DNA from: Arachis hypogaea
Taxonomy: Eukaryota; Streptophyta; Magnoliopsida; Fabales; Fabaceae
Direction: 5' to 3'
Assembly: GCF_003086295.3 (NCBI RefSeq)
Contig: NC_092051.1
Coordinates: 74,773,772 to 74,837,771, forward strand
Length of the DNA: 64,000 nucleotides
This document shows positions 967 through 61,179 of the stretch, piece after piece. Both the position numbers and the translations under genes were made by a program. The notes under the pieces were generated by a model, which was given only the letters and a program-made list of their open reading frames with translations, ran no database searches and was not told the origin of the DNA. Positions within the stretch are counted from its first letter, which is position 1. Each line of letters opens with the position of its first letter.

Positions 967-969
967 TTT

Positions 970-2375
970 TGAAGAGAGGAACTTTTGCGTGGTCTAGAAA
1001 TTCGCAGATAAATTCTCGTTGCAGGTATAGCTTCTAAACCAACAAAAGTCCTTTCTTACAAACATTTTGGTTGTCACAAGTAACAAACCCCTTTGAAATT
1101 GATAACCGAAGTATTTAACCTCGGGTCGTCTTCTCAAGGAATTGCAGGGAAGTATGTTCTTATTTTTGGTTATGAGTCTTGTAAATTGGGGTTTTGAAAG
1201 TAAGGAACCAATATGTTAAATGATAAGAAAAATAAAATAATAATAATAAAATAAACCCTTGGCAAGGTATTAGAACTGGAAGTCCTATCCTTATCAATTG
1301 TGATGAGAATTGGATTTTAATCCCACTTTGTTAACCTCTAACTATGAAGGTAAATCAAGTGGATTAATTAGCTTAATCCTCAGGTCCTAGTCAATTCCTA
1401 TGGAAAGACTAGAGTTATTGGAGCAACTCCCAATTTCAACCACTGCTTTATTTGACAGCTCAAGTGTTACCAATTACTTAAGCTAAGCCAAAAGGGAGAA
1501 AATATCTAAATTAAATTAAAAGCATCAATATAAATAAAGCAAAGCAATCTTAAATCTGAAATACCTCAAATAATATTAATTAAGAAAATCATAACATGAA
1601 TGTAGCATAAGCCAAATTGAATAGATAAATAATAATTAAAAGTATATAATAAAAGTAGAAAATAAATAAAAGGAACATTGAACCTGTGATGAAGAAGAAA
1701 TAATCCTAAATCCTAAAACTAAATCCTAAGAGAGAGGAGAGAGCCTCTCTCTCTAAAAACTACATCTAAAACTAAAATTATGAATGGATGGATTTCCCCA
1801 CTTTATAGCCTTTAATCTGTATTTTTTGGGCCGAAAACTGGGTCGAAAACAGCCCAGAAATCGCTGGAGAAGAAAACTGCCACGCTGATTTTCGGAACTG
1901 CGACGCGTCCGCGTGGAGAGCGCGTTCACATTGCCTAGCGTCAGGGCAACTATGGCATATTATATATCAAATCGAAGCCCCGGACATTAGCTTTCTAACG
2001 CAACTGAAAACGTGTCATTTGGACTTTTGTAGCTAAAGTTATAGCCGTTTGAGTGCGAAGAGGTCAGGCTGGACAGCTTAGCAATTTCTCTAACTTCTTG
2101 TATTCCTCCCACTTTTGCATGCTTTCTTTCCATCCTCTGAGCCATTCCTGCCCTGTAATATCTGAAATCACTTAACACACACATCAACGCATCTAATGGT
2201 AATAAGAGAGGATTTAAACATAGGGAACTTAAGGCCAAAGAAGCATGTTTTCAATCAAAGCACATAATTAGGAAGGCAGATGTAAAACCATGCAAATAGT
2301 ATGAATAAGTAGGTAAAGAATTGATAAAAACCACTCAATTGAGCACAAGATAAACCATAAAATAGTGGTTTATCA
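970..2375 (-). mobile_element. Element A 5' LTR (Ty3-gypsy, Athila-like)
   Basis: LTR of 1406 bp read on the minus strand, bounded by TG at 2375 and CA at 970 and followed by the primer site. It opens with an inverted repeat, GATAAACCA facing TGGTTTATC. A TATA-like box (minus GGCTATAAAG) lies at 1801-1810. A segment around 1895-1935 holds the GACGCG/CGCGT words typical of this family. A stem-loop with arms CCGA and TCGG lies at 1104-1124 near the 3' end. A plus-strand copy of most of this LTR occurs at 19741-20790. The element is inserted in the 3' LTR of element B; the flanking CTCTC at 2376-2380 is the probable target-site duplication, but the other side lies outside the window. Confidence 0.85.
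1801..1810 (-). promoter_or_regulatory. Candidate TATA box of the element A LTR
   Basis: The minus strand reads GGCTATAAAG. The same box is present at 19997-20006 in the plus-strand LTR copy, followed by the same GTGGAG context, which suggests transcription starts about 30 bp downstream. Confidence 0.5.
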
Positions 2376-8347: not shown

Positions 8348-9637
8348 TGGTGCGCGCGAATGTGATCTTAACACTTCTTCACAACTCCGCACAGCTGACC
8401 AGCAAGTGCACTGGGTCGTCCAAGTAATACCTTACGTGAGTAAGGATCGATCCCACGGAGATTCTCGGCTTGAAGCAAGCTATGGTCATCTTGTAAATCT
8501 CAGTCAGGCGGATTCAAATAGTTATGAGGTTTTGATAATTAAAATATAAATAAAATATAAAATAAGATAGAAATACTTATGTAATTCATTGGTGGAAATT
8601 TTAGATAAGCGTCTGGAGATGCTTTGTTGCTTTTGAACTTCTGCTTTCCTACTGCCTTCTTCCAATCATGCGTTACCTCTTTCCATGGCAAGCTGTAAGA
8701 TCCTCTCGGATGAAAACAAATCCATATGCGCTGTCACCGCACAACTAATCATCTGTCGGTTCCCGCTAGCGCCGGAATCGGACCATTGTCCTTTTGCACA
8801 CTGTCACTGCGCCCAACATTCGCAGGTTTGAAGCTCTTTACAGTCATCCCTTCCTAGATCCTACTCGGAATACCACAGACAAGGTTTAGACTTTCCGGAT
8901 CCCAGGAATGCTGCCAATGGTTCTAGCCTATACCACGAAGGTTCTAATCTTAGATTAGAAACCCAAGAGAATATACTCCAACTATCGTCCAATGACTACG
9001 TTGAACATCATGTAGACCGCTTTGTGGTTGTCAGGCACGTGATCTTGGCTAAGCGAGTAACGAAGATTGGGTGATTGTCACGGGTCACCCCTTTATTGTG
9101 ACTTAACTGAATTAAGTACGAGAGTATATCTTGGAGAAGAAGTAGGTGTGAATTGAATAGAAAAACAGTAGTAATTTCATTAATTCATGAAGAACAGCAA
9201 AGCTCCACACCTTAATCTATGGGGTGTAGAAACTCCACCGTAGAAAATACATTAGTAAAAAAGGTGTAGGCATGGCCGAATGGCCAGCCTCCAAACGTGT
9301 ACAAAATGATCTATGATAGCATAAAACTGATAAAGGATGTAAAATAAATCACTAAAAGTAGTTTTTATACTAAACTAGTAACTAGGTTTTACAGAAAATG
9401 AGTAACTAAGTGCAGATAGTGCAGAAATCCACTTCTGGGGCCCACTTGGTGTGTGCTTGCGCTGAGCATTGATGCTTTTTCGTGCTTAGGCTGTTCTTGG
9501 AGTTAAACGCCAGCTTTGGTGCTAGTTTGGGCGTTTAACTCCAATTCAGGTGCCAGTTTGGGCGTTTTACGCCAAGATGTTTTAGGCTAACTTTGGACGC
9601 CAGTTTGGGCCATCAAATCTCGGGCAAAGTATGGACT
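8348..9637 (-). mobile_element. Truncated FIDEL-like LTR
   Basis: Minus-strand LTR ending GCGCACCA at 8348. It matches the 3' five-sixths of the G and H LTRs, including the two U5 hairpins (8399-8445) and the family words GGGCGTTTAACTCC and GGCGTTTTACGCC (9506-9610). Identity stops at about 9637, roughly 250-300 bp short of the usual LTR start, where unrelated sequence begins. No primer site or internal sequence is attached. It marks the left edge of the insertion complex in element B. Confidence 0.7.
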
Positions 9638-10741: not shown

Positions 10742-12184
10742 TGATAAACCACTATTTTATGGTTTATAACGTGTTTAATTGTGTGGTTTTATCATGATCT
10801 TTACCCACTTATTCATATGATTAGCATGCATTTATATTTCCTTCCTAAAATTATTACATGATTGAAAACTTGCTTCTTAGAGACTTTTAATTATGTATTT
10901 TTAATTCTCCTTTATTCCATTCGATGCTGTGATCTGTGTGTTAAGTGTTTTAGGCTTTATAGGGCATGAATGAGTTGGAGATTGGAAAGGAAGCTTGCAA
11001 AAATGGAAGGAACACAAGAAATTGAGGAGATGACCAGCGAGAAGTGACGCGGCCGCATGGCTCACGCAACCATGTGGATTGGAATAGCACAAGTGAAGCG
11101 GAGGCGTGGACGACGCGCTCGCGTGGCAGGGCAAAACGCCGAATGACGCGGCCGCATGAATGACGTGATCGCGTGATGTGCGCGATCTGCATATTCTGCA
11201 GAATTCACTGGGGCGATTTTGGGCCCTGTTTTGACCCAATTTTTGGTGCAGAAAAGCAGACTAGAGCCAGAGAACATGCAGAGACCGAGAACAACATTCA
11301 TTCTACACAATTTTTAGTTTTTAGATCCAGTTTTACTCCTCCTCTAGGCTTTCTCTGTACACATTCATAGTTCTTAGGATTTTATTTCTATTGCTCTTTG
11401 CATTGGGATATTGAGAAGAGTTATTACCTCATCAAGACTTCGTCATTCTAGTTCGTTTTCTTTACTTGGCTCTTACTCTTCCATGTCCTTTAATTTACTC
11501 AATTTTACTATTGAATTATTTTTTGAATTTATTAATATAAGAATTACTTTTATTTTTACTTGATTTCTTCGATTTTTATTTATCATGTCTTTCTTTAATT
11601 CCCTTTCCTATGTTATGAATTCTACATTCACAATGAGCGAGTAGTCCCCTAACTTGATGGGGAGTTGATTGAAAGGAACTCTTGAGTTTGAATGCTCAAA
11701 AAGAAAAATTGTAATTGGGTTTATTGTTGGATTGCCCTCTAGTCGCTGACACCAATCCCTCTTAATTGAGTGAGTTGGAACTTGTGAATAGAAGTAGCAT
11801 TCCAACTTGTTTGACTTTTCTTTACCTAGTAAGGGATAACTAAACAAGACAACCTTCAATTGTCAATTAATCTTGAGAGTACTCCAACAAGAATAGGGTT
11901 TCCAGCTAAACTACTCCCAGTCAAGGCTTTTATTTAAAATACATAAATTCTCTAATTTAATTTCCTGTTATTCAATTCAAACCATTTTGAAAACATCTGA
12001 TTAATAAAGTAGCACACCTTTCTGCAACTCGTTGGGAGACGACCTGGGATTCATACTCCCAGTATTTTAATTTTAATTTTTGTGACACCCTTCTAAATTG
12101 ATAAGCGGGTTTCTGGTTGGTTAAGAACTATACTTGCACGCATATCTTATAACAATTCTTGATTCGCCAATTTCTGCCACGTCA
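10742..12184 (+). mobile_element. Element C 5' LTR (Athila-like)
   Basis: LTR of 1443 bp, from TGATAAACC at 10742 to GTCA at 12184. It has the family's GACGCGGCCGC and ACGCGAxCGCGT words at 11046-11175, a U5 hairpin with arms CTGGGA and TCCCAG (12044-12062), and a primer site right after it. Its match is the split LTR at 21011-21498 plus 36542-37545. Internal 3' sequence lies on its left and a primer site on its right, so it is shared between two elements in tandem or arose by recombination. Confidence 0.8.
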
Positions 12185-13992: not shown

Positions 13993-16011
13993 TGATGACA
14001 AGTCATATTGACCCAGTTTTACTAGCCTTTTTCTTTATTTTTATTTAGTTTTATACACTTTCTTGCATCCTAAGAAATCAATTTGGAATGAAAATGCACA
14101 ACTCCTTTGAATCAAACAACCACCATGAAATTTATGCTAAATCATGAGGTTTAAGCTAAATTTAATTAATTTTTAATGATTTATAAGCCTTGTGAATTTG
14201 GTGATACTTTGATTGGTTGTTTTGGTTATTTGTAGGTGAAGAAAAGAAGAAAAGAAGAAAAGCGTGGCCTAAGAAGTATGGCCAAGAAAGGAGGAAGTGT
14301 GGTGCAAAAAACTATGAAGCTCACTCCAAGAGCACCAAGCTCACTAAATGAGCGCTACACTCACTCCCAAGGGACCAAGGCACAAAGCTCAGCTCACTTT
14401 GTGAGCTGAGCACAACATGAGGCCAAGAAACAAGGAAAGAAGAACCAAGCTCAGCTCATAAAGAAATAATTCAAGGAAAATGATTTGCAATTGCATGCTC
14501 CAAGACTTGAACTCATGACCAAGGGGGATGGGGGAGGCGTTACTCACAAAGGAAAATAAGCCAAAAATGGCCAAATGCACTCCCCAAGGATCGAACCCCA
14601 CACCTTGAGGAAGCAAGGAAGTAAGGCAACCAAGAAAAGGGGTAGCGCATGCTACCCATGGGTTTCGAACCAAGGACCTTTCCTTGGATGTCCCAAGGCT
14701 CAGCTCACTTGGAGAGCTGAGCGCTACCTCTTGGTGCATGAAGCACAAATTTGACACGGCCAGGAGCACAAGGAGCGCGCATGACACGGTCCCTGGGCAG
14801 CACACAGCACACAACATTTGGCACCAAGGCACCAATGCTCAGCTCACAAAATGAGCTGAGCTCTTCCCTGATGCACCCCAAGACAGCAGCACGCTACCAA
14901 TGCTTCCCCACACTAAGTGTCAAAGCTCAGCTCACTTTGTGAGCTGAGCACTCCCCTGGAAGCATATTACCCATGGGTTGAAAATTCAACCAAAAGTCCA
15001 ATTTAATTCAAATCTTCACCAAATCAAAAGCCCATCCAAATTCCAATATCCGAGAATAGAAAGTGTGTAAATAGGAGTTAGTTTGATGTAATTAGAGAGT
15101 TGAATTTTATTTTAAATTTTTCTTTGAATTTTCATTTTCATTTTGAGCTTTTGTTTTTGAGTTTAGATTTCAGAGAACTTGGAAGGAGAATTGATCTCTC
15201 TTCTTCTTGTTTCTTGCTTGAGCTCTCTTTAATTTTCTTGCTTTGGATCTTGGGTGGAGAATTGAAGAACTTCTGTTTCAATCTCACCTTGAGATCTTGT
15301 TTTAATTTTCTGCATAATTGAATTTAAATTTCCATTTACTGCTTCTTCTTCTACAATCCCTACAATTCACTTTTCTTCATTTCTCTTGCAATTGTTCTTG
15401 TTGGATCAAGGAAGGATTTGAGATCTAGAATTGTTATCTAGTCTCTTCCACTCCTGAGATCTTCAACCTCTTTTACTTTGCTGCAAATTAAGCACTGCTT
15501 TCCTGTTTTTAAATTCTTCAAAGCATTTTACTCTTTTCTTCAAGATCTACTTCACTGCAAGTGAATTTTCTCTTTTATGTTTAATGCAATTTACTTGTTC
15601 TTGTTTAAATTCTGCAATCCCAATTCCCAATTCCTTTTATGATTCAAGCAATTTATATTTCTTGCACTTTAAGCTTCAGCCATTTACATTTCTTGCAATC
15701 TAAGTTTCTGTAATTTACATTACTTGCACTTTAAGATTCTGCTCGTTTACTTTCCTGCTCTTTAATTTACTGCACTTTACCCCTCTCCCTTTACATTTCA
15801 AGCAATTTAGTTTCTGCAAATTACAAATCACTCAACCAAATCATGATTCGCTTGGCTAAATCAACCACTAAACTAAAATTGCTCAATCCTTCAATCCCTG
15901 TGGGATCGACCTCACTCATATGAGTTATTATTACTTGATGCGACCCGGTACACTTGCCGGTGAGATTTGTGTGTTTTGGAAAATTCGTTTTTCCACAAAA
16001 AAACACCATCA
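13993..16011 (+). mobile_element. D1 5' LTR
   Basis: 2019 bp, TGATGACAAGTCAT at the start and CCATCA at the end. Palindromes with arms GCTCAGCTCAC and GTGAGCTGAGC occur at 14386-14410, 14698-14722, 14838-14862 and 14925-14949. A TATA-like TGTAAATAG is at 15066-15074, where D2 has TATAAATAG. The U5 hairpins are at 15911-15924 and 15945-15960. Confidence 0.85.
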
Positions 16012-19740: not shown

Positions 19741-20790
19741 TGCTCTTCGCACTCAAACGGCTATAACTTTAGCTACAGAGGTCCAAATGATGCGGTTTCA
19801 GTTGCGTTGGAAAGCTAATGTCCGGGGCTTCGATTTGATATTTAATATGCAATAGTTGCCCTGACGCTAGGTGACGCGACCGCGTGCTCCATGCAGACGC
19901 ATCGCAGTGACGGAATTTCAGTATGTTTGAATTCGCAACCAGCGAATTCTGGGTTGTTTCTGACCTAGTTCTCGGCCCAGAAAACACATATTAGAGGCTA
20001 TAAAGTGGAGGAATGTATCCATTCATAAGGAGGCTTTCACATTCACAATTTTAGGAGTAGATGTAGTTTTTAGAGAGAGAGGTTCTCTCCTCTCTCTTAG
20101 GATTAGGATTTAGGACTTCTTTTAGTTTTAGGAGTGACTCTCAATCCTAGGTTCAATGTTCTTTTATTTCTTTTCTCAATTTTGTTTATGACTCTCTATG
20201 TTTAGATTGATTTTCTATTTAATATATTTTGAGGTATTTCAGACTTATGATTGCTTTCTTTTATTTATATAAATAATTTGGATTTTTTCCTTTTGGCTTT
20301 GGTTGAGTCATTGGTAACTCTTGAGTTATCAAACTCATTGTTGATTGAAAATTGGAATTCTTCAAGAATTAATTCGAGTTCCAATAACTCTAGCCTTTCC
20401 CAAGGAAAGACTAGGACTTGAGGAATCGAAAATAATTCATCCACTTAACTTACCTTCATACTTAGAGGTTAACAAAGTGGGAGAAAAATCCAATTCTAGT
20501 CACAATTGATAAGGATAACTAGGATAGGACTTCTAGTTCTTCATACCTTGCCAAGAGTTTTATTATTATTATTTTATCTTTCTTGTCATTCAACTAACTT
20601 TTTACCTTAATCCAAAACCCCAAAACACACTTTTTCATAACCAATAATAAGAACACCTCCCTGCAATTCCTTGAGAAGACAACCCGAGGTTTAAATACTC
20701 GGTTATCAATTTCAAAGGGGTTTGTTACTTGTGACAACCAAAACGTTTGTATGAAAGGACTTTTGAAGGTTTAGAAACTATATCTTGCAC
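19741..20790 (+). mobile_element. A-family LTR fragment
   Basis: Plus-strand match to the element A LTR, beginning at CTCTTCGCACTCAAACGGC (compare 2040-2063, minus strand). It contains the TATA-like GGCTATAAAG at 19997-20006 and the hairpin arms CCGAG and CTCGG at 20684-20702. The U3 start and the last 50-60 bp of the LTR are missing. Both ends are sharp joins to other elements, the right one at a CTTGCA shared with the C element, which suggests recombination or end-joining. Confidence 0.75.
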
Positions 20791-25461: not shown

Positions 25462-27000
25462 TGATGAGCGGATAATTTATACGCTTTTTGGCATTGTTTT
25501 TACTTAGTTTTTAGTATGATTTAGTTGGTTTTTAGTATATTTTTATTAGTTTTTAATTAAAAATCACATTTCTGGACTTTACTATGAGTTTGTGTGTTTT
25601 TCTGTGATTTCAGGTATTTTTTGGCTGAAATTGTGGGAGCTGAGCAAAAATCTGATTCAGGCTGAAAAAGGACTACTGATGCTGTTGGATTCTGACCTCC
25701 CTGCACTCAAAGTGGATTTTCTGGAGCTACAGAACTCCAAATGGCGCGCTCTCAATTGCGTTGGAAAGTAGACATCCAGGGATTTCCAGCAATATATAAT
25801 AGTCAATAATTTGCTCAAGGATAGACAACGTAAACTGGCGTTCAACGCCAGTTCCATGTTCCAGTCTGGCGTCCAGCGCTAGAAACAAGTTACAAGTTGG
25901 AGTTCAACGCCAGAAACAGGTTACAACCTGGCGTTGAACGCCCAAAACAGCCCAAGCACGTGAGAAGCTTTAGTCTCAGCCCCAGCACACACCAAGTGGG
26001 CCCCAGAAGTGGATTTCTGCACTATCTATCATAGTTTACTCATTTTCTGTAAACCTAGGTTACTAGTTTAGTATTTAAACAACTTTTAGAGATTTATTTT
26101 GTATCTCATGACATTTTTAGATCTGAACTTTGTACTCTTTGACGGCATGAGTCTCTAAACTCCATTGTTGGGGGTGAGGAGCTCTGCAGCGTCTTGATGA
26201 ATTAATGCAATTATCTCTGTTTTCCATTCAAACACGCTTGTTCCTATCTAAGATGTTCATTCGCGCTTCACTATGAAGAAGGTGATGATCCGTGACACTC
26301 ATCACCTTCCTCAATCCATGAACGTGTGCCTGACAACCACCTCCGTTCTACATCAGATTGAATGAGTGTCTCTTAGATTTCTTAATCAGAATCTTCATGG
26401 TATAAGCTAGAATTGATGGCGGCATTCATGAGAATCCGGAAAGTCTAAACCTTGTCTGTGGTATTCCGAGTAGGATTCAAGGATTGAATGGCTGTGACGA
26501 GCTTCAAACTCGCGATTGTTGGGCGTAGTGACAGACGCAAAAGAATCAAGGGATTCTATTCCGACATGATCGAGAACCAACAGATGATTAGCCGTGCTGT
26601 GACAGAGCATTTGGACCATTTTCACTGAGAGGACGGGAAGTAGCCATTGACAACGGTGACACCTTACATACAGCTTGCCATGGAAGGAGCCTTGCGTGTG
26701 TGAAGAAGAAGACAGGGAGAAAGCAGAGATTCAGAAGACAAAGCATCTCCAAAACTCCAACATATTCTCCATTACTGCATACCAAGTATTTATTTTATGT
26801 TCCCTTGTTCATTTGCAAGTCAACTGATAATTATAATTGGCCTCTTAACTGAGATTTACAAGATAACCAGAAATTGCTTCAAACCAACAATCTCCGTGGT
26901 ATTCGACCCTTACTCACGTAAGGTATTACTTGGACGACCCAGTGCACTTGCTGGTTAGTGGTATGAATTGTGAAAAGTGTGATTCACAATTCGTGCACCA
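25462..27000 (+). mobile_element. G 5' LTR
   Basis: From TGATGAGCGG to GTGCACCA, 1539 bp. Includes the inverted pair TTGGAAAG/ATTTCCA with ATATATAATAG just after (25761-25802), the palindrome words GGCGTTCAACGCC and GGCGTTGAACGCC (25838-25945), a candidate TATA box TATTTAAA (26072-26079), and the U5 hairpins at 26908-26923 and 26939-26954. Confidence 0.92.
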
Positions 27001-27006
27001 AGTTTT

Positions 27007-27023
27007 TGGTGCCTTTGCCGGGG
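27007..27023 (+). promoter_or_regulatory. Primer binding site of G
   Basis: TGGTGCCTTTGCCGGGG, two mismatches to the tRNA-Asp complement. Confidence 0.85.
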
Positions 27024-27870
27024 ATTGTTCGTGTTTGAAAAACTGACGGTTTATTTTGTTGCTTAGATTAGGAAAAATTTTTCTTTTTGGTTTAGAGTCT
27101 CTTATTATTGTTTTTGGTTAAAAATTTTAGAATCCTTATTTTCTCTTTCAAAAAAAAAATATTTCTTTCATTCTTAGTTATTTAAAAAAAATACTTCTTC
27201 AAAACAAGTGTTACATTTACTGCCAAATTGGCTAGAGCGTTGGTCTAACTTCGTGGCAATTTGGTATACTCTTTCCAAACTCTTCTTTTTAAAAAAAAAA
27301 TAATAATTTCTCTATTAAATTTTGTGCCAAACTTTAAGTTTGGTGTTTTCTTGTTGATTTCCCTTTGGTTTTCGAAAATTTTAGCTTGGTTTTCTAAAAA
27401 TTTTAAGTTTGGTGTTCTTTCTCCATGTTCTTGTGTTCTTGTGAGTCTTCAAAGTGTTATTGAGTTTTCCTTGTGTCTTGATCTTAAAATTTTTAAGTTT
27501 GGTGTTCCTTGGTATTTTCCCTCCAAAATTTTCAAAAACAAGAAGCATTAGATCTAAAAATTTTAAATCTTGTGCTATCTTATTCTTTTTCTCTCTACTC
27601 TTTAAATTCAAAAATATCTTTTCTCTCAATTTGAAGCAAATTTTCGAAATTTACCTTTAAAATTCAGATTTTTATTTCAAAATTTAAAAACTTTTTTCAA
27701 AAATCATCATATCCTTTTCAAAACTTCCTAACCACTTTCTCTCTCCTCATTTTTTCGAAAATTTTCAACCATTTTTATTTATTTTATTTTAATTTATTTC
27801 ATTTTCGAAATAAATAAATAAATAAATAAATAAAAATAAAATTTTTTTTCATCATCTCCCTTTCTCCATC
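27024..27870 (+). other. G leader with tRNA-like piece and AAGTTTGGTGTT repeats
   Basis: At 27220-27262 an AAATTGGCTAGAGCGTTGG segment resembles the D-arm half of a tRNA; element H has a clearer version in the same place. AAGTTTGGTGTT is at 27336, 27405 and 27495, about 70-90 bp apart. T-rich elsewhere, with an ATAA run at 27805-27840. The small frames here are not supported. Confidence 0.55.
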
Positions 27871-33772: not shown

Positions 33773-35311
33773 TGATGAGCGGATAATTTATACGCTTTTT
33801 GGCATTGTTTTTACTTAGTTTTTAGTATGATTTAGTTGGTTTTTAGTATATTTTTACTAGTTTTTAATTAAAAATCACATTTCTGGACTTTAGTATGAGT
33901 TTGTGTGTTTCTCTGTGATTTCAGGTATTTTCTGGCTGAAATTGAGGGAGCTGAGCAAAAATCTGATTCAGGCTGAAAAAGGACTGCTGATGCTATTGGA
34001 TTCTGACCTCCCTGCACTCAAAGTGGATTTTCTGGAGCTACAGAACTCCAAATGGCGCGCTCTCAATTGAGTTAGAAAGTAGACATCCAGGGCTTTCTAG
34101 TAATATATAATAGTCAATACATTTCTCAAGGATAGACGACGTAAACTGGCGTTCAATGCCAGTTCCATGTTGCAGTCTGGCGTCCAGCGCCAAAAACAAG
34201 TTACAAGTTGGAGTTCAATGCCAGAAACAGGTTACAAGCTGGCGTTGAACACCCAAAACTGCCCAAGCACGTGCAAAGCTTTAGTCTCAGCCCCACCACA
34301 CACCAAGTAGGCCCCAGAAGTAGATTTCTGCACTATCTATCATAGTTTACTCATTTTCTGTAAACCTAGGTTACTAGTTTAGTATTTAAACAACTTTTAG
34401 AGATTTATTTTGTATCTCATGACATTTTTAGATCTGAACTTTGTACTCTTTGACGGCATGAGTCTCTAAACTCCATTGTTGGGGGTGAGGAGCTCTGCAG
34501 CGTCTTGATGAATTAATGCAATTATCTCTGTTTTCCATTCAAACACGCTTGTTCCTATCTAAGATGTTCATTCGCGCTTCACTATGAAGAAGGTGATGAT
34601 CCGTGACACTCATCACCTTCCTCAATCCATGAACGTGTGTCTGACAACCACCTCCGTTCTACATCAGATTGAATGAGTGTCTCTTAGATTTCTTAATCAG
34701 AATCTTCGTGGTATAAGCTAAAATTGATGGCGGCATTCATGAGAATCCGGAAAGTCTAAACCTTGTCTGTGGTATTCGGAGTAGGATTCAAGGATTGAAT
34801 GGCTGTGACAAGCTTCAAACTCACGATTGTTGGGCGTAGTGACAGACGCAAAAGAATCAAGGGATTCTATTCCGACATGATCGAGAACCAAAAGATGATT
34901 AGCCGTGCTGTGACAGAGTATTTGGACCATTTTCACTGAGAGGACGGGAAGTAGCCATTGACAACGGTGACACCTTACATACAGCTTGCCATGGAAGGAG
35001 CCTTGCGTGTGTGAAAAGGAAGACACGGAGAAAGCAGAGATTCAGAAGACAAAGCATCTCCAAAACTCCAACATATTCTCCATTACTGCATACCAAGTAT
35101 TTATTTTATGTTCTCTTGTTCATTTGCAAGTCAACTGATAATTATAATTGGCCTCCTAATTGAGATTTACAAGATAACCAGAAATTGCTTCAAACCAACA
35201 ATCTCCGTGGGATTCGACCCTTACTCATGTAAGGTATTACTTGGACGACCCAGTGCACTTGCTGGTTAGTGGTACGAATTGTAAAAAGTGTGATTCACAA
35301 TTTGTGCACCA
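33773..35311 (+). mobile_element. G 3' LTR
   Basis: 1539 bp, the same length as the 5' copy, with scattered substitutions and no indel noted by eye. U5 hairpins at 35219-35234 and 35250-35265. Followed by TSD GACGC. Confidence 0.92.
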
Positions 35312-36541: not shown

Positions 36542-37545
36542 CGATCTGCATAATTTGCAGAATTCGCTGGGGGCGATTTTGGATCCTATTTTGACCCAGT
36601 TTTCGGCCCAGAACAGCAGACTAGAGCCAGAGAACATGTAGAAACCAACAACAACATTCATTCTACACAGTTTTAGTTTTAGATCTAGTTTACTCCTCCT
36701 CTAGGTTTTCTCTCCATACATTCATAGTTCTTAGGATTAAATTTTCTCTTACTTTTTTGCATTGGAACACTGAGAAGAGATATTACCTCATCAGGACTTC
36801 GTCATTCTAGTTCGTTTTCTTTACTTAGCTTTACTCTTCCATGTTCTTTGCTTTGTTTAATTTTACCATTGGAATATTTTTAGGATTATTTAATACAAGG
36901 ATCACTTTTATTTTTTATTGACTATTTTGATTTTTATTTACAATGTCTTTCTTTAATTCCTTTTTATATGCTATGAATTTTACATTCACAATGAGCGAGT
37001 AGTTCCCTAACTTGATGGGGAGTTGATTGAAAGGAACCCTTGAGTTAGAAGGCTTAAAAGAAAGATTGTAATTGGGTTTATGGTTGGATTGCTTTCTAGT
37101 CACTAACACCAATCTCTTTTAATTAAGTGGATTGCAACTTGTGAACAGACGTAGCATTCCAACTTGTTTAACTTTCCCTTACCTAGTAAAGGATGACTAA
37201 ACAAGACAACCTTTAATTGTCAATTAATCTTGAGAGTATTCCAACAATAATAGGGATTCCGACTAACCAACTCCCAGTCAAGGATTTTATTTACATTATT
37301 CAAATTCACCAATTTAATTTCCTATTTACTCAACTCAAACCTTTTTGAAAACATCTGATTAATAAAATAGCACACTTTTCTGCAACTCGTTGGAAGACGA
37401 CCTGGGACTTATACTCCCAGTATTTTAATTTCAATTTTCTGTGACACCTTTTTAAATTGATAGGCAGATTTCTGGCGAGTTAAGAACTATACTTGCAACG
37501 TACATAAATTAACAATTTTTAATTCGCCAATTTCTGCCCGCATCA
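36542..37545 (+). mobile_element. Element C 3' LTR, second part
   Basis: Resumes with GCGATCTGCATAATTTGC, matching 11180 onward, and ends CGCATCA at 37545. The U5 hairpin CTGGGA/TCCCAG is at 37402-37420. The two parts total about 1.49 kb against 1.44 kb for the 5' LTR. The base after it is element B coding sequence; ATGAT at 37546-37550 is the expected TSD but no left copy is found because that side is rearranged. Confidence 0.85.
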
Positions 37546-37691
37546 ATGATCTCCCTCTCACTCACCCAATCATAGAATTGATTTTTGTTGAATGCGGAGA
37601 GGAACTTGTAGTCATTGAAAGATCTTGAGGGTCTAGAGATTGGTTCCTTGGTTTTTCTTTTCTTTAAGCCTAAGCTTTTTGGTGGTGCCAT
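37546..37691 (-). pseudogene. Element B env-position ORF, N-terminal part
   Basis: The minus-strand ATG at 37691 starts MAPPKSLGLKKRKTKEPISR, followed by SRSFNDYKFLSAFNKNQFYD and WVSEREI, where element C is inserted. It lies downstream of pol, the place of the env-like third ORF in Athila elements. No signal peptide or membrane segment is visible in this part. The text recalls proteins often labelled 'putative plant transposon protein' in legumes, but function is unknown. The upstream ATG at 37748 would add 19 residues; I prefer 37691 because MAP also opens the relic ORF in F. Confidence 0.5.
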
Positions 37692-40326: not shown

Positions 40327-42203
40327 TGATGACAAGTCATCATATACCCTTTTTATTAGTCTTTTTCTTTATTTTCATTTGGTTTTATACACTTTCTTGT
40401 ACTCTAAGTAAGTAATTTGGAATGGAATTGCATTACTTCTCTTAATCAAACAACCACCATATAATTGATACTAAATCATGAGGTTTAGGCCAAATTTAAT
40501 TGCATTTTTATGATTTGTAAACCTTGTGAATTTGGTGATACTTTGATTGGTTGTTTTGATTAATTGTAGGTGAAGAAAAGAAGAAAAGAAGAAAGCGTGG
40601 CCTAAGAAGTATGGCTCAAAGAAGAAAAAGTTGGCCAAGAAAAGAGGAAGTGTGGTGCAACAAAACCATGAAGCTCCCTCCAAAGCTCACTAAGTGAGCG
40701 CTACACTTATCCTCAAGGGACCAAGGCATAAAGCTCAGCTCACTTTGTGAGCTGAGCACAACATGAAGGCAAAAAAATAAGGAAAAGAAGACCAAGCTCA
40801 GCTCACAAAGTGAGCATTATCGAGAGCGCTAAGGAAGAAATTCAAAGAGCGCTCCTTGCAAGGAAAATAAGCCAAAATTGGCCAAAATGCTACTAGCAAG
40901 TCTCGAACACGGAGGCTTCAGCAAGGAAGGTGCACTCCCAGCACCACTAGAGCGCTACCTTGAAAGATGTCTAAGACTTGGCACGCGAAATATTTTAAGG
41001 GATCAAGGCGCACAATTTGGCACTAGCGCTCAGCTCACAAAGTGAGCTGAGTTCTCCCCTGATGCACCCAGCAACACGCACGCTACCATTCCTCACACTA
41101 AGTGCCAAAGCTCAGCTCACTTTGTGAGCTGAGCACTCCCCTGGAAGCAATTTCTTCATGGGCTGAAAATTCAACCAAAAATCCAATTTAATTCAAATCT
41201 TCACCAAATCAAAAGCCCATCCAAATTCCAAAATCCAAGAATAGAAAGTGTATAAATAGGAGTTAGATTGATGTAATTAGGGGGGGAGACTTTACTTTGA
41301 ATTTTCCTTTTTAGCTTTCATTTTAATTTTGAAATTTTTGCTTTGAGTTGGTAATTTCAGAGAACTTGGGAGGAGAATTGATCTCTCTCCTTCTTGGTTC
41401 TTGCTTGAGCACTCTTTTATTTTCTTGCTTTGGATCTTGGGTGGAGAATTGAAGAACTTCTGTTTCAATCTCACCTTGAGATCTTGTTTAATTTTTCTGC
41501 ACAATTGAAATTTCATTTTCTGTTTGATTCACTGCTTCATCTTCTACAGTTTTCTGCAATTTACTTTTCTTTGTTTCTTTAGCAATTGTTCTTGTTGGAT
41601 CAAGGAAGGATTTGAGATCTAGAATTGTTATCTAGTCTCTTCCACTCCTGAGATTTTCAACCTCTTTTAATTTGCTGCAACTTAAGCATTGCTTTCCTGT
41701 TTTTAAATTCTTCAAGTCATTTTACTTCTCTGTTAAGATTTGCTTCACTGCAAGTCAAATTTCTCTTTTATGTTTAATGCACTTTAATTGTTCTTGTTTA
41801 ATTCCTGCAAGTCCACGTCCCAATCCCTTTTATAATTCAAGCAATTTACATTTCTTACACTTTAAGTTTCAGTCATTTATATTCCTTGCAAGTTAAGTTT
41901 CTGCACTTTATTTTACATGCTCTTTAAGATTCAGTTTCTTTATTTTCCTGCTCTTTAGTTTACTGCAATTTTCCCTTTCCCAATTACATTTCATGCAATT
42001 TAGTTACTGTTAATCACAAACACTCAACCAATACTTGATTCGCTTGACTAAATCAACCACTAAACTAAAATTGCTCAATCCTTCAATCCCTGTGGGATCG
42101 ACCTCACTCATGTGAGTTATTATTACTTGATGCGACCCGGTACACTTGCCGGTTAGATTTGTGTGTTTTGGTGGAAATTTATTTTTCACCAAAATACTCA
42201 TCA
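40327..42203 (+). mobile_element. D2 5' LTR
   Basis: Opens TGATGACAAGTCATCA, a perfect palindrome of two 7-bp arms, and ends ACTCATCA. Palindromes GCTCAGCTCAC/GTGAGCTGAGC at 40734-40758 and 41110-41134. TATA box TATAAATAGG at 41251-41260. U5 hairpins at 42103-42116 and 42137-42152. Compared with the 3' LTR it lacks a 58-bp segment after AAATTCAAAG near 40850. Confidence 0.92.
41251..41260 (+). promoter_or_regulatory. TATA box of the D2 LTR
   Basis: TATAAATAGG, repeated in the 3' LTR from 46168. A good plant TATA box, placing transcription start near 41280-41290. Confidence 0.65.
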
Positions 42204-45301: not shown

Positions 45302-47120
45302 TGATGACAAGTCATCATATACCCTTTTTAATAGTCTTTTTCTTTATTTTCATTTGGTTTTATACACTTTCTTGTAAACCTTGTGAATTTGGTGATACTT
45401 TGATTGGTTGTTTTGATTAATTGTAGGTGAAGAAAAGAAGAAAAGAAGAAAGCGTGGCCTAAGAAGTGTGGCTCAAAGAAGAAAAAGTTGGCCAAGAAAA
45501 GAGGAAGTGTGGTGCAACAAAACCATGAAGCTCCCTCCAAAGCTCACTAAGTGAGCGCTACACTTATCCTCAAGGGACCAAGGCATAAAGCTCAGCTCAC
45601 TTTGTGAGCTGAGCACAACATGAAGGCAAAAAAATAAGGAAAAGAAGACCAAGCTCAGCTCACAAAGTGAGCATTATCGAGAGCGCTAAGGAAGAAATTC
45701 AAAGAAAAATGATTTGCAAATGCATGCTCCAAGGCTTGAACCCATGACCCAAGGGAGAGTGTGGAGCGCTCCTTGCAAGGAAAATAAGCCAAAATTGGCC
45801 AAAATGCTACCAGCAAGTCTCGAACACGGAGGCTTCAGCAAGGAAGGTGCACTCCCAGCACCACTAGAGCGCTACCTTGAAAGATGTCTAAGACTTGGCA
45901 CGCGAAATATTTTAAGGGATCAAGGCGCACAATTTGGCACTAGCGCTCAGCTCACAAAGTGAGCTGAGTTCTCCCCTGATGCACCCAGCAACACGCACGC
46001 TACCATTCCTCACACTAAGTGCCAAAGCTCAGCTCACTTTGTGAGCTGAGCACTCCCCTGGAAGCAATTTCTTCATGGGCTGAAAATTCAACCAAAAATC
46101 CAATTTAATTCAAATCTTCACCAAATCAAAAGCCCATCCAAATTCCAAAATCCAAGAATAGAAAGTGTATAAATAGGAGTTAGATTGATGTAATTAGGGG
46201 GGGAGACTTTACTTTGAATTTTCCTTTTTAGCTTTCATTTTAATTTTGAAATTTTTGCTTTGAGTTGGTAATTTCAGAGAACTTGGGAGGAGAATTGATC
46301 TCTCTCCTTCTTGGTTCTTGCTTGAGCACTCTTTTATTTTCTTGCTTTGGATCTTGGGTGGAGAATTGAAGAACTTCTGTTTCAATCTCACCTTGAGATC
46401 TTGTTTAATTTTTCTGCACAATTGAAATTTCATTTTCTGTTTGATTCACTGCTTCATCTTCTACAGTTTTCTGCAATTTACTTTTCTTTGTTTCTTTAGC
46501 AATTGTTCTTGTTGGATCAAGGAAGGATTTGAGATCTAGAATTGTTATCTAGTCTCTTCCACTCCTGAGATTTTCAACCTCTTTTAATTTGCTGCAACTT
46601 AAGCATTGCTTTCCTGTTTTTAAATTCTTCAAGTCATTTTACTTCTCTGTTAAGATTTGCTTCACTGCAAGTCAAATTTCTCTTTTATGTTTAATGCACT
46701 TTAATTGTTCTTGTTTAATTCCTGCAAGTCCACGTCCCAATCCCTTTTACAATTCAAGCAATTTACATTTCTTGCACTTTAAGTTTTAGTCATTTATATT
46801 CCTTGCAAGTTAAGTTTCTGCACTTTATTTTACATGCTCTTTAAGATTCAGTTTCTTTATTTTCCTGCTCTTTAGTTTACTGCAATTTTCCCTTTCCCAA
46901 TTACATTTCATGCAATTTAGTTACTGTTAATCACAAACACTCAACCAATACTTGATTCGCTTGACTAAATCAACCACTAAACTAAAATTGCTCAATCCTT
47001 CAATCCCTGTGGGATCGACCTCACTCATGTGAGTTATTATTACTTGATGCGACCCGGTACACTTGCCGGTTAGATTTGTGTGTTTTGGTGGAAATTTATT
47101 TTTCACCAAAATACTCATCA
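45302..47120 (+). mobile_element. D2 3' LTR
   Basis: Same ends as the 5' LTR. It lacks about 116 bp after CACTTTCTTGTA near 45378 and has the 58 bp missing from the 5' copy (45705-45765). U5 hairpins at 47020-47033 and 47054-47069. TATAAATAG at 46168-46176. Confidence 0.92.
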
Positions 47121-49002: not shown

Positions 49003-51493
49003 TGATGAGTCGAATTCACACCCCATTCAAAATTTGTGAATTAGTCCTTTTGGCAAGCGTACCAAAATTATCGTCAAGTAATAACCCACAGTGGAGTGGG
49101 ATCGTATCCACAGAGATTGGCAAATTCGAGCAGTTTTAATCAATTGATGAATTAGTCAAGCGGATCAATATGATTGTAGAGTGCAGAATTGTAAATAACA
49201 TAAATGTAAATGACTAGAATATAAAGAAAAGCAATAAAGTGCAGAAATATAACTGGTAGAAAGTAAAGGGCAAAATCATAAATGACTTAAATGTAAATGG
49301 GAATGGGGAATTGCTGAATGTAAAAATAAGCTGTAAAGAAAAGGATAGATAAGAATGGGGAAATTCATTGAGATTGGGAGGTGTTGTCTCTTTGGATCAA
49401 ATCTAGCTTATATACTCTTCAATCATGCAACTCATTGACCTCTTGGCAATCATGATTGATTGAGCCCCAATCCCTTGGTGACTCAATCTCTCAGATCTTG
49501 ATCAATAGCCAATTCCTTGGTCTAATTGTTCATGAAGAGAGATATGCTTGGTCCTTGATTATACCACACACCATTATAGGTCCAAGTAGAGGGAGGATTA
49601 TATGTCACATATCCAAACACCAAAACCCAGATTCTACTCTAGTGTTAGAAGGGATTTCAAGCATGGTTTCATGTTTCCTTTCCCAAGGTTCCCATGAAAC
49701 CCAATTGCATTCAATCTCTTTCCCAAGATAATTGAATACTAAGCATTAAGAACGAAATTCCTTCTAGCAAATCAAAGATAAGATGAAGAGAAGAAGAATT
49801 TCACTACTATCAATCCATCAAGTACAACAGAGCTCCCTCTCTCAATGAGGGGGAAGTTAGGTACTCATAGCTCAAAAAGTACTCAAAAGTGAAGTGTAAA
49901 AATGGATCTAAAACTGACTGCTTAACCCCCTTCTTCAGTACTCCTTGGGGGTATTTATACTACTCCTAGTAAAATAAAAGAATTACAAAAGTGAAAAAGG
50001 AAAATTACATTTTAGAGGGAAAAGAGAACATTCAATAAGCATGACTTCTCAACTGGCGTGTGGCTGGCACTTTTCTGGCGTGTCACGTGCCCTTCACTTC
50101 CAGCTTGGTGTGCCACGCCTAATCCTTCAAGTGGCATGCTCGTCCCTCTCTCAATCTTGGCGTGCCACGCCTTCGAACTCAACTGGCACGCCATAGTGGA
50201 TTTCTTGTATTGGCGTGCCACGCCTTCGAACTCAAGTGGCACGCCCCTTGCCTTTCTCACTTATCTTTGCCTCTGGAAACTTGTACTGGCATGCCACGCC
50301 CAAGGTCTGGCATGCCACGCCCTTGCTTTATGCTTGGCTAGGCTTCTCTGGAATGTTGAACTAGCGTGGCACGCCCAGGGTCTGGCGTGCCACGCCCCTT
50401 TTGTGAGTGAGTAGTTCCTCTGTTTGGCATGCCACGCCACGAACTTAAGTGGCACACCCCAATGCTTCGCTTTGAATGACACTGGCATGCCACGCCTGGT
50501 TACTCAAGTGGCACGCCCAATTGAAGAATGGTGAGTGGCGTGCCACGCCTTCGATACCAAGTGGCACGCCCCATGTAATTGGCCTCCTTCATCCTCTCTG
50601 GAAACTTATACCAGCGTGCCACGCCCATGATCTTGTCTTGGTTCCAGTAGTTGGCATGCCACGCCTCAGTCTTCAAGTGGCACGCCATAGGGAAATGCTA
50701 AGGTTGGCGTGCCACGCCTTCGAACTCAAGTGGCACGCCCAGTCCTTGCTTTTGGTCCTTTGTGCATTGGCGTGCCACGCTTGGTTGCTCAAGTGGCACG
50801 CCCAGTCTTCAATTGCCTTTAGCCCCTTCTCTGGATTGTTGTACCAGCATGCCACACTATGCTGCTCAAGTGGTACGCCCATGGATTTGTGAACTCTTCA
50901 AGCTTGGCGTGCCACACATGGGTTCTCAAGTGGCACGTCCAAGTGACTTCTTGGGGCTGGCGTGCCACGCCTTCGACACCAAGTGGCACGCCATAGTGAA
51001 GGTTCTTCTTGGAATGGTGAGTTGGCATGCCACGCCTTTTTGCTCAAGTGGCACGCCCATAGTAATTGATTGGCCAGGCGTGCCACGCCCAGCTTGGGGT
51101 GCGACGCCCCTTTTGTGTCCTCAATTGTAGCTCTCTAGGATTTTGTATTAGCGTGCCATGCCCAGTCTCTGGCGTGCCACGCCCACATGCATGCTTGAAC
51201 TTCTTCTCTGGACTTTAGTACTGGCGTGCCATGCCCAGCTCCTGGCGTGCCACGCCAGTGCATTTTTGTGGCGTTTGCTTCAAGTGGCATGCCAGTTTCA
51301 CACGCCCAGCTTCTTGTTTGTCTTCTACCCATTTTTTGATGCTTTTCTCATCTGAAATTCAGCACAACTCATCTCAAAGTAGTGTACCATAATATTCATC
51401 AAATAATGCATGAATTGTACTGATCAAATGAGATTTATGCTCTTTTATGGTCTTCTTTATGCAAGAAAGAAGGGTAGATGATGCAAGTCATCA
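49003..51493 (-). mobile_element. Solo LTR of the B family in the B protease gene
   Basis: 2491 bp with TG and CA ends and a 5-bp TSD GCTTC at 48998-49002 and 51494-51498. Minus orientation: start TGATGACTTGCATC at 51493, end ATTCGACTCATCA at 49003. U5 hairpins: arms CCCAC/GTGGG (49085-49100) and TTTTGG/CCAAAA (49048-49067). TATA box (minus TATAAATAC) at 49951-49959. The palindrome array of GGCGTGCCACGCC is at 50055-51300. Removing it with one TSD copy rejoins protease codons KMKIEEA and KPTRMALQLAD in frame. Long frames in the array are artefacts. Confidence 0.92.
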
Positions 51494-53888: not shown

Positions 53889-55340
53889 TGCTGAATCCAA
53901 TTCACACCCCATTCAAAAATTGGTGAATTAGTTCTTTTGGCAAGCGCACTAAAATTATCGTCAAGTAATAACCCACAGTGGAGTGGGATTGTATCCATAG
54001 AGATTGGAAAATTCAAGCAGTTTTAATTAATTGATGAATTAGTCAAGTGGATCAATATGATTGTGAAGTGCAGAATTGTGAATGACATAAATGTAAATGG
54101 CTAGAATATAGAGAAAAGCAATAAAATGCAGAAATGGAAATGGCAGAATGTAAAGTGCAGAATCATAATTGACTTGAATGTATAATTAAGCTATAAAGAA
54201 ATGGATAGATAAGAATGGGGAAATTCATTGAGATCAGGAGATGTTGTCTCTGTGGATCAAATCTAGCTTATATCCTCTTCAATCATGCAACTCATTGACC
54301 TCTTGGCAATCATGATTGATTGAGCCCAAATCCCTTGGTGACTCAATCTCTTAGATCTTCATCAATAGCCAATTCCTTGGTCTAATTGCTCATGAAGAAA
54401 GATATGCTTGGTCCCTGATTATACCACACACCATCATAGGTCCAAGTAGAGGGAGGATTATATGTCACACATCCAAATACCAAAACCCATATTCTACTCA
54501 AGTGTGACAAGGGATTTCAAGCATGGTTTCATGTTTCCTTTCCCAAGGTTCCCATGAAACCCAATTGCATTCAATCTCTTTTCCAAGATAATTGAACACT
54601 AAGCATTAAGAATGAAATTCCTTCTAGCAAATCAAAGAGAAGATGAAGAGAAGTACTCAATGAGAGGGAAGTTAACTACTCATAGCTCAAGGAAAAGAAC
54701 TCAAAAGTGAAGTGTAAAAGTGGATCTAAAACTAACTGCTCAACCCCTTCTTCAGTACTCCTTGGGGGTATTTATACTAGTCCTAGTAAAATAAAAGAAT
54801 TACAAAAGTGAAAAAGGAAAATTACATTTTGGAGGGAAAAGAAGCTCAATAAGTGTGACCCCACAATTGGCGTGTGATTTGCGCTCTAGTGGCGAGTCAC
54901 GTGCTCTTCAATTTTAGCTTGGTGTGCCATGCCCAGCCCTTCAAGTGGCACGCTCGTCTTCACTAACAAACTTGGCGTGCCACGCCTTCGAGCTCAAGTG
55001 GCACGCCCTAGTCTTTTTCCACTTCTCTTTGACTCTGGAAACTTGAACTAGCGTGGCACGCCCAGGGTTTGGCATGCCACGCCCTTGCTCTATGCTTGGC
55101 TAAGCTTTTTTGGAAAGTTGCGTGGCACGCCCAGGGTCTGGCGTGCCACGCCCCTTTGTGTGTGAATGGTTCCTCTGTTTGGCGTGCCACGCCACGAACT
55201 CAAGTTGCACGCCCCAATGCTTCTTTGCTCTCTGAATGACACTGGCGTGCCACGCTTGGGATTCAAGTGGCATGCCTAAGTGAAGAATAGTGAGTGGCGT
55301 GCCACGCCTTCGATACCAAGTGGCACGCCCCATATAATTG
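53889..55340 (-). mobile_element. Element B 5' LTR, interrupted by F
   Basis: The 3' end is at 53889 (minus GGATTCAGCA). It matches the solo LTR from 49003 on, with U5 hairpins at 53935-53954 and 53972-53987, the TATA box at 54768-54776 and the palindrome array from 54870. The match stops at 55340, where F starts after ATTGG; the rest lies beyond the window. A stretch near 54180 lacks about 45 bp found in the solo LTR. Confidence 0.85.
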
Positions 55341-56782
55341 GTGATGCGTGAGCATCTTCTCTATCTTTTCCTAGTAAATTTGCATTCAAATTGTTGAGTT
55401 TAATCAAGATTTAAATATCTTTTAGCCACTATGGATGCTACTTTGAGTTGTGCACAATTCTATTTATTTCAGGTAGCATCCAGAGGGAGTTTACGGAGTT
55501 TTGTAGCAGAAAAGGGAGAAAGCAAATGATGCTGTCAATCCTGACCTCCTTGCACTCAAACTGGAATAACCTGAGCTACAGAGGTCCAATTGACGTGATT
55601 CTAGTGGCATTGAAAGTTAACTTCTAGGGCTTTCCAACGATATATAATAGTGCACATTTCTTCTCCAGCAACCTCTGCATCCCCCACGTTGAACTTGGTT
55701 CCTTCCAAGTTCGGCGTGGATTGGAGAACTTCCAAGGAAGCACTTGCTGCCTTCTCCACGTTGAACTTGGAAAAAGCCAAGTTCAGCGTGGAGCTTAATG
55801 AATCCAATGGTCCCCACACTCTTCAAGCCCCACACAGATCAATTAAATTAATTTTGAATCAACTTTTATTTTATTTACAATTAGGAAAAGATATTATTTT
55901 AGTTTTAGGAAATATATTTTACATTAATTAGGATTAGATATAAAAGGGAAAAGAATCAGCCCTTCGGCTCTCTCTTCTCTTTTACCTCATTCCGTACTTT
56001 ACAGTTTTACGAATCCTAGTTTTTCTCTCTACATCATGAGTAACTAAACCTCTACTGTTAAGGTTAGGAGCTCTATCTATTGTATGGATTGAGACTATTA
56101 TTTTTCTATTTTAATTCATGTACTGATTTATATTTCAAGAATTGTTTTCGTTCTTTATTTTATGAATTTGGGTGGAACGGAAGTATGACCCTTTTTCTAA
56201 TTGAGTTCTTGTATAACTTGGAAAAGCTCTTTATTTGAACAACAGCTTGAAAACATATTCTCCTAAATTTCTAATTATCTAGACTTAATGGAATACGTGA
56301 CATATAATCCTCTTATATTTGGGTAATTAGGATTTTTGTGGCATATAAACTAGAATTGAACTTCATCCTCTAATTGGAATTAAGTGACCAAGGAATTGGT
56401 GGTTGATGAAAGTTAGAGTAGACTAAGAAGGTCTAAGGAATTAGGGCTTAGTCATATATAGTTTGCCATGAATTAAATCTTGCATGAGTAAAATAGTTAG
56501 TAAGAAAAGTTAATCCGAAAAATAGATATCTCTGAAACCTTAACTGTTTCTCCATATATTATTCACAACTCGTTTACTGCTTGCTTTCTAATTTACCGAA
56601 TTTACTGTTTAATGCTTTTGAACTCTTAAACACCATTTTCTGCTTGTCTAACTAAGTAAATTAATCAACCATTGTTGCTTAGTCCATCAATCCTTGTGGG
56701 ATCGACCCTCACTCACCTGAGGTATTACTTGGTACGACCCGGTGCACTTGCCGGTTAGTTTGTGGTTTTTAATTCCGCACCA
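55341..56782 (+). mobile_element. F 5' LTR
   Basis: 1442 bp, from TGATGCGTGAGCATC (arms GATGC/GCATC) to CCGCACCA. It shares with G and A the block GAGCTACAGAGGTCC and the TTTCCAACGATATATAATAG element (55630-55655). Palindromes built on CACGTTGAACTTGG and CCAAGTTCAGCGTGG at 55687-55795. TATA box TATAAAAGG at 55939-55947. U5 hairpins at 56707-56722 and 56739-56754. Confidence 0.88.
55939..55947 (+). promoter_or_regulatory. TATA box of the F LTR
   Basis: TATAAAAGG in an AT-rich to mixed transition, 600 bp into the LTR. Confidence 0.6.
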
Positions 56783-59640: not shown

Positions 59641-61179
59641 TGATGAGTGAATAATTTATACGCTTTTTGGCATTGTTTTTACATAGTTTTTAGTATGATT
59701 TAGTTAGTTTTTACTATGTTTTTATTATTTTTATGCAAAATTCACGTTTCTGGACTTTACTATGATTTTGTGTGTTTTTCTGTGATTTCAGATATTTTCT
59801 GGCTGAAATTGAGGGACCTGAGCAAATTCTGATTCAGAGGCTGAAAAAGGACTGTAGATGCTGTTGGATTCTGACCTCCCTGCACTCGAAATGGATTTTC
59901 TGGAGCTACAGAAGTCCAAATGGCACGCTCTCAATTGCGTTGGAAAGTAGACATCCAGGGCTTTCCAGAAATATATAATAATTCATACTTTGCTCGAGTT
60001 TAGATGACGTAAACCGGCGTTCAACGCCAGTTCTCTACCCTATTCTGGTGTTAAACGCCAGAAACAGGTTACAAGTTGGAGTTAAACGCCCAAAACAGGT
60101 TACAACCTGGAGTTTAACTCCAAAAATAGCCTAGGCACGTGTAAAGCTTAAGTCTCAGCCCCAGCACACACGAAGTGGGCCCCGGAAGTGGATTTCTGCA
60201 CTATCTATCATAGTTTACTCATTTTCTGTAAACCTAGGTTACTAGTTTAGTATTTAAACAACTTTTAGAGATTTATTTTATATCTCATGACATTTTAGAT
60301 CTGAACTTTGTACTTTTTAACGGCATGAGTCTCTAAACTCCATTGTTGGGGGTGAGGAGCTCTGCTGTGTCTCGATGAATTAATGCAATCACTTCTGTTT
60401 TTCATTCAAACACGCTTGTTTCTATCTAAGATATTTATTCGTACTCCAATATGATGAATGTGATGATCCGTGACACTCATCACCATTCTCAACCTATGAA
60501 TGCGTGCCTGACACCCACCTCCGTTCTACATTAGATTGAATGGGTATCTCTTGGATTCCTTAATCAGAGTCTTCGTGGTATAAGCTAGAATCCATTGGCA
60601 GCATTCTTGAGAATCGGGAAAGTCTAAACCTTGTCTATGGTATTTTGAGTAGGATTCAGGGATTGGATGACTGTGACGAGCTTCAAACTCACAAGGGTTG
60701 GGCGTAGTGACAGACGCAAAAGGATCAATGGATCCTATTCCAGCATGAGTGAGAACCGACAGATGATTAGCCGTGCGGTGACAGCGCACCTGGACCATTT
60801 TCACTGAGAGGACGGATGGTAGCCATTGACAACGGTGATCCACCAACACACAACTTGCCATAGGAGGAACCTTGCGTGCGTGAAGAAGAAGACAGGGGGA
60901 AAGCAGAGATTCAGAAGACAAAGCATCTCCAAAACTCCAACATATTCTCCATTACTGCATAACAAGTATTTAATTCATGCTCTTTTATTTTTCGCAATCC
61001 AAACTAATAATTATAATTGATTTCCTGACTAAGAAATACAAAATAACCATAGCTTGCTTCAAGCCGACAATCTCTGTGGGATCAACCCTTACTCACGTAA
61101 GGTATTACTTGGACGACCTAGTGCACTTGCTGGTTATTGGTACGAGTTGTGAAAAGTGTGATTTACAATTCGTGCACCA
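59641..61179 (+). mobile_element. H 5' LTR
   Basis: 1539 bp, exactly the length of the G LTRs despite many substitutions. Starts TGATGAGTGAATAATTT and ends GTGCACCA. Family palindromes at 60014-60125, where some words are GGAGTTTAACTCC. U5 hairpins at 61087-61102 and about 61118-61134. Confidence 0.9.

Follow-up and report, generated by a model that had tools for sequence, protein, structure and literature searches.

Stems formed by the U5 region of retroviral RNAs act in starting reverse transcription. In the U5-IR and U5-leader structures of retroviruses, the 3' arm of the U5 stem ends near the primer site (PMC3601003). A structured 5' leader with kissing loops is similarly found near the primer site in the LTR retrotransposon Ty1 of yeast (PMC5454406). 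In plants, packaging signals have been proposed for BARE1/BARE2 LTR elements, and are kept in a non-autonomous family (PMC3735527), and Sireviruses host conserved non-coding motifs, among which a stem loop (PMC2829016). The peanut module described here resembles the retroviral and Ty1 structures in being a leader or LTR structure located close to the primer site. Unlike the retroviral stems, it belongs to plant Ty3-type elements with a tRNA-Asp primer and features two additional covarying hairpins with kept loops. Ty1 is a Ty1/copia element, and the loop palindrome is not general in the peanut module. BARE1/BARE2 are also Ty1/copia, and no covarying U5 hairpins are given in the available text (PMC3735527). 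Sireviruses again are Ty1/copia, and their stem loop is located at the polypurine tract, and their palindromes upstream of the TATA box, instead of where U5 faces the primer site (PMC2829016).

The Athila/Tat grouping of plant Ty3/gypsy elements is already in print, and tRNA-Asp figures among the various primers that non-chromoviruses use (PMC6317226); tRNA-Asp priming has been described for Calypso and Diaspora (PMC1142308). No description of the module was found in the searchable part of the open-licence PubMed Central literature, and printed LTR letters sought in the same portion gave matches that, judged by title, are unrelated. The terms hairpin and secondary structure, and the string "dimeriz", are absent from the main text, as available, of a life-cycle review of December 2025 (PMC12786077). 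Elements of this kind occur in very large numbers in plant genomes. A covarying leader domain is a defined target for learning how plant retrotransposon RNA gets packaged and primed, bears on how non-autonomous families are carried along, and provides a structural mark for the annotation of LTR ends.

LTR elements in the window

The window, i.e. the whole stretch of 64,000 nucleotides analysed (C16:74773772-74837771 of the 2.557-Gb genome of Arachis hypogaea), is a pile of LTR elements, as revealed by self-BLAST. The LTR pair denominated G1/G2 is bordered on both outer flanks by the sequence GACGC. The G LTR possibly corresponds to FIDEL, a known peanut family. Among the best 120 of 7,981 relatives of the G reverse transcriptase, the named one most similar to it is from Arachis hypogaea (92% identity). 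Ty3-type gag and reverse transcriptase are recognized by Pfam in the G element, and also in others that the window contains; by these matches, as by the tRNA-Asp primer, the elements are putative members of the Athila/Tat (OTA) superclade; "Tat-like" and "Athila-like" are working labels of the author only. Pfam found neither gag nor reverse transcriptase in the ORF of the D element, which may be non-autonomous. The D element between LTRs D2 and D3 contains a 433-aa open frame (42362-43663) with no Pfam match. A 100-base tRNA-Leu (caa) is identified by ARAGORN on the minus strand (14647-14746), just before LTR D1.

Beyond the window, the sample covered 20 segments of 10 kb and a shorter one of 4 kb from the same genome. 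Similarity searches provided 30 places in these segments, a few of which (L069+6630, L077, L078) are not of this kind, and 14 places in the window. In addition, 39 further ends were read beside exact primer sites along one chromosome.

Organization of the module

Two hairpins surrounding a TTACTTG spacer are found at 26908-26954 and at nine further LTR 3' ends of the window (Table 1), and the ten copies are all identified by a covariance model. The same two-hairpin module is found at many LTR 3' ends elsewhere in the genome. Matches to the hairpin 2 pattern in the window are 8, versus 0.57 expected, and the largest number obtained in 100 shuffles is 3. No Rfam family reaches the gathering score in the window.

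The hairpin arms that the original prediction had listed for the G, F, D1-D3, B (minus strand), A and C LTRs are all present at their places. The order hairpin 1, TTACTTG, hairpin 2 is confirmed for G, F, D and B; its extension to A and C is not supported, and these have only hairpin 1 in common with the others. As to the hairpin 2 described for B, B1 conforms to it and B2 deviates at one position. The module is moreover larger than had been noticed, as it includes a third, terminal hairpin.

Upstream of hairpin 1 (26848-26903), LTR ends of this first group share a further kept stretch (CTAACTAAG/CTGACTAAG, TTGCTT, CTCTGTGGGATCGACC). The tract GGGATCGACC within it resembles the tRNA-Asp T arm in antisense, a likeness that is weakly supported.

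Table 1. Position of the module, of its copies and of related structures in the window
Feature	Position	Strand	Remarks
LTR G1	25462..27000	+	module at its 3' end; TG..CA ends
LTR G2, partner of G1	33773-35311		96.9% over 1539 bp (self-BLAST)
G1 hairpin 1	26908..26923	+	CCTTAC/GTAAGG, loop TCAC
G1 kept spacer	26924..26932	+	TATTACTTG
G1 hairpin 2	26939..26954	+	CCAG/CTGG around TGCACTTG
G1 hairpin 3	26961..26996	+	14 bp, adjoins LTR terminus (27000); z -4.59
Primer site	27007..27024	+	tRNA-Asp type, two mismatches to search pattern
G2 hairpins 1 and 2	35215..35270	+	covariance model
G3 hairpins 1 and 2	61083..61138	+	covariance model
G4 hairpins 1 and 2	8394..8449	-	covariance model
D1 hairpins 1 and 2	15907..15965	+	covariance model
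D2 hairpins 1 and 2	42099..42157	+	covariance model
D3 hairpins 1 and 2	47016..47074	+	covariance model
F hairpins 1 and 2	56703..56759	+	covariance model
B1 hairpins 1 and 2	49045..49104	-	covariance model
B2 hairpins 1 and 2	53932..53991	-	covariance model; one mismatch in hairpin 2
A1 hairpin 1	20684..20702	+	LTR end cut, so no terminal hairpin
A2 LTR 3' end	967..1145	-	hairpin 1 and long terminal hairpin
C1 hairpin 1	12044..12062	+	terminal hairpin follows before 12190
C2 LTR 3' end	37358..37550	+	hairpin 1 and terminal hairpin
Loops with older LTR end (beyond the window)			L085, L088, L090, L092, L093, L095-L097, L099, L103, L106, L107, L113, L114, L117, L120, L122, L124

Paired changes in hairpins 1 and 2

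The arms of hairpin 2 include CCAG/CTGG, CCGG/CCGG, TTTTGG/CCAAAA, TTCGG/CCGAA and ACCC/GGGT. When ends were parsed on spacer and loop letters alone (29 of 45, reduced to 19 distinct rows), 93.9% of the hairpin 2 cells were found to pair, versus 22-48% with a slid partner. Four of the six pairs have changes on both sides, and such cells number 16, versus 4.6 in shuffles. Within the 8-base loop, the two outermost bases at either side are also paired (37 of 38 cells), so that a 6-bp stem is the better reading of hairpin 2. Hairpin 1, counted over 13 distinct arm sets, all from the first group, is paired in 78.2% of the cells (18-46% when slid), and a change on both sides is seen at five of its six pairs. 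The outermost pair fails in 5 of the 13 versions and the innermost in 7, and the dependable core is therefore of 4 bp. In a plain sequence alignment of 17 ends, hairpins 1 and 2 pair in 87.1% of the cells versus 33-40% when slid.

Covariation was also compared with a tree-based null, used as a home-made substitute of R-scape. Substitutions assigned by parsimony to the branches of a FastTree tree were dealt, branch by branch, to random columns in 60 null alignments. Rows derived from 50 of 84 ends, which could be parsed, plus L015, which was added by hand, and 42 of them were distinct; the 3' arms of L067+5085, L083+5582, B1 and B2 had been set by hand to the spacer boundary beforehand. In the 42 rows the covariation summed over the 12 structure pairs is 135.5, versus 2.7 in the null (s.d. 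19.7, largest value 55.6). Among all 1,431 column pairs, the highest score belongs to the fourth pair of hairpin 1 (T-A, C-G, G-C), and no null pair out of 85,860 attains it. Next comes the third pair of hairpin 2 (A-T, G-C, C-G), with E about 0.1 over all pairs. The remaining 10 of the 12 structure pairs are not significant after correction, and three of these have nominal p values of 0.024-0.032. The proposal that covariation exceeds phylogenetic expectation thus survives the substitute test through one pair in each hairpin.

Changes at one pair of hairpin 1 were also counted throughout the genome as exact copies in a fixed 26-letter context, the numbers being lower bounds. The main form, A-U, is present in at least 42,739 copies and G-C in at least 1,979, versus at least 105 and 100 for the half-changed forms G.U and A.C, respectively. 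The doubly changed form outnumbers each of the half-changed ones about 19-fold; it has therefore been amplified, and they have not. Amplification may correspond to few events. Many of the 100 G-C places listed are same-strand pairs about 10 kb apart, as the LTR pairs of whole elements would be. These counts reveal no excess of G.U over A.C, such as a preference for RNA wobble would produce, and the equal numbers suggest decay after insertion. The double change at another hairpin 1 pair was found in only 17 copies in the same context.

Paired changes in excess of slid, shuffled and tree-based controls support the view, put forward originally, that the hairpins are a selected RNA fold with a kept loop. 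The hairpins might alternatively be inherited by shared descent and pair by chance, with no selection on the fold. The arm sets are few and mutually related, which counts against selection, and the nulls are home-made; yet the outcome of the tree-based null, the slid controls and the excess of double over single changes make this explanation very improbable. The fold is well supported; its function we infer from the location and the features of the module.

A terminal hairpin next to the primer site

Folding reveals a stem at the LTR terminus, which is 14 bp long in G1, longer in D2, and made of other letters elsewhere; most families have it. Over 25 first-group ends the mean z of this hairpin 3 is -2.25, and 14 of the 25 ends have p < 0.05; the other 11 miss this threshold, and neither L073 nor L075 beats shuffles. 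The set omits L065+7954, L067+683, L071-6110, L082+4302, the near-duplicates D3 and L064+9150, and L015, in which the LTR ends right after hairpin 2, leaving no room for hairpin 3. Within the G kind the arms change in step, as in TTGTGA/TCACAA (L066) and TTGCAA/TTGCAA (L081). Hairpin 3 is located in U5, its 3' arm is at the LTR end and it adjoins the primer site, an arrangement of the U5-IR type. The primer site of G1 starts 6 bases past hairpin 3 and the LTR terminus. In every family having a primer site the module adjoins it, up to inserts in hairpin 3. One primer-site 25-mer has 32,511 exact copies in the genome.

Long inserts are found in hairpin 3 of many copies, and consist in part of an earlier LTR end accompanied by the remains of a primer site. 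Of the 39 additional ends 35 were parsed, and an inner end was recognized by text pattern in 17 (another, L085, by eye). In 17 of these 17 the true end pairs better than the inner one with the 5' arm (mean -18.7 versus -7.3 kcal/mol), the cases not being independent because the copies are related. The loop of the terminal hairpin holds in these copies the older LTR end and a stretch resembling a decayed primer site (ACCAAGTTTTTGGAGCC...), as though the LTR had become longer by taking up its own end together with a portion of the primer site.

LTRs A and C, together with six further ends, constitute a second group outside the two-hairpin order. They share a hairpin 1 of the CCGAG/CTCGG type, imperfect in some, and a long terminal hairpin, the loop region of which carries CTATACTTGCAACG or close forms. 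The terminal stem beats shuffles in 8 of 10 ends (p <= 0.03), the exceptions being L068 (p 0.077) and A1 (p 0.95), where the LTR end is cut. Paired changes are found also here, as in TTTAGAA/TTCTAAA (L074) and TTTGGAA/TTCCAAA (L071). The motif TATACTTGC is common to the two groups, being located in the terminal hairpin in the second and in some hairpin 2 loops in the first; the sequence found in the second group is, letter for letter, the hairpin 2 loop of L069.

Plausible function of the module

TATA boxes are located 412-1206 nt from the LTR end in five of the six LTRs scanned (G1 and G2 were entered 2 bases short), and none was found in the sixth, C1. Since they lie upstream of the module, genomic transcripts would be expected to include it in their 5' leader, next to the primer site. 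In G1, hairpins 1 and 2 are 46-93 nt from the LTR end; this position, relative to that of the TATA boxes, makes a role in polyadenylation, one of those originally envisaged, unlikely. Packaging or the start of reverse transcription, also envisaged, would best fit the place of the module.

Matched changes in the arms point to a functional RNA signal in either packaging or copying, a subject little studied in plants. We propose, with a probability of about one half, that in the genomic RNA of these Ty3-type elements the hairpins constitute a selected, structured U5 domain of the 5' leader, serving Gag recognition and packaging as well as presentation of the primer site. Hairpin 3 would be the U5 stem, with the 3' arm ending at the LTR terminus, and, by analogy with retroviral U5 stems, might keep accessible the tRNA-Asp primer site, located 6 nt downstream. 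Because their stems are free to vary and their loops are kept, hairpins 1 and 2 look like protein recognition hairpins. They would present short kept loops (U-R-Y-R-C-U-U-G in hairpin 2) on stems of free sequence, and the loops would most likely be recognition points for the Gag of the element itself. Recognition by Gag would lead to the choice of the genomic RNA for packaging and to the setting up of the primer complex.

Dimerisation was also among the roles initially considered. Hairpin 2 loops could let two genomic RNAs pair as at a retroviral dimer initiation site; the location in the leader is suitable, and 6-base palindromes are found at the loop in G and F (GTGCAC) and in L069-type ends (GTATAC). 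These are not common to all versions, however. D (GTACAC), B1 (GTACGC) and L015 (CTACAC) have no 6-base palindrome, and a dimerisation site shared by all versions through a loop palindrome was rejected; moreover TT and, nearly always, the C before it are kept regardless of self-pairing. Dimerisation through hairpin 2 is thus an unlikely function. Selection might otherwise operate on DNA, through integrase recognition of the LTR end or a protein binding palindromic DNA, the RNA fold being incidental. Integrase must bind the LTR end, which hairpin 3 reaches, and half-changed G.U pairs are no commoner than A.C, as symmetry of DNA would give. Hairpins 1 and 2, however, are 46-93 nt inside the end, and have arms free to vary and kept loops. 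On the plus strand, 37 of 38 cells at the inner two positions of hairpin 2 hold wobble or U-A/A-U pairs, most of which would be lost on the opposite strand. We hence regard selection on DNA as improbable.

A role of the module, as a structured leader or LTR element, in processing or translation of the leader RNA (3' end formation, splicing, ribosome entry) or in small RNA silencing has similarly little likelihood. Adjacency to the primer site fits reverse transcription rather than gag start codons, and in the LTRs scanned the tract from hairpin 1 to the LTR end contains no poly(A)-like hexamer. Along the line of Gag recognition, which remains our preferred reading, we tentatively suggest that the UAYACUUG or URCACUUG loop, on free stems, may be an old signal for Gag or a host protein, placed in different hairpins in two Ty3-type groups, and may allow families such as D, in which neither gag nor pol is recognised, to be carried by the particles of other families.

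The region features a weak trend to complementarity with the T arm of tRNA-Asp. Against shuffles, 8 of 14 ends have p <= 0.05. In a comparison with 31 decoy T arms, where the T arm lacked one variable-loop C, the mean rank is 0.23, and ranks are < 0.5 in 15 of 16 cases and <= 0.03 in 3 of 16.

Relatives in other sequence collections

At E < 1e-5 the covariance model retrieves 32 matches from 50 sources, and each corresponds to a plant-type LTR end; 17 of the 32, L015 included, are training rows. The 23 sources that are prokaryotes or phages yielded no match at this level, a single one having E 0.29. No match was obtained in L021, L028, L035 and L037, which are other plant-like ends. Viral contigs provided no relatives by reverse transcriptase and none by primer site. 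The DNA pattern hits 10 loci in them, which were discarded as chance matches, as flanks inspected by eye lack the module.

Scanning prokaryote genomes for the primer site retrieved 23 loci, which are mostly bacterial DNA. L028 has only the TGTGGGATCGACC stretch, L021 has no clear module, and L015 hosts the module. The latter is a 3.9-kb contig, with 37% GC, of a Streptomyces assembly, and is read as plant contamination. Plant-like LTR ends found in bacterial assemblies (L015, L028, L035 and L037, from Streptomyces and Candidatus Burkholderia humilis) probably all derive from contamination by host or sample. In L035, which lacks a match to the covariance model, the 170 bases preceding the primer site include CTCTGTGGGACGA, followed by a hairpin (ACAATTAC/GTAATTGT) with GACTT in the loop, which is perhaps a further variant of the module.
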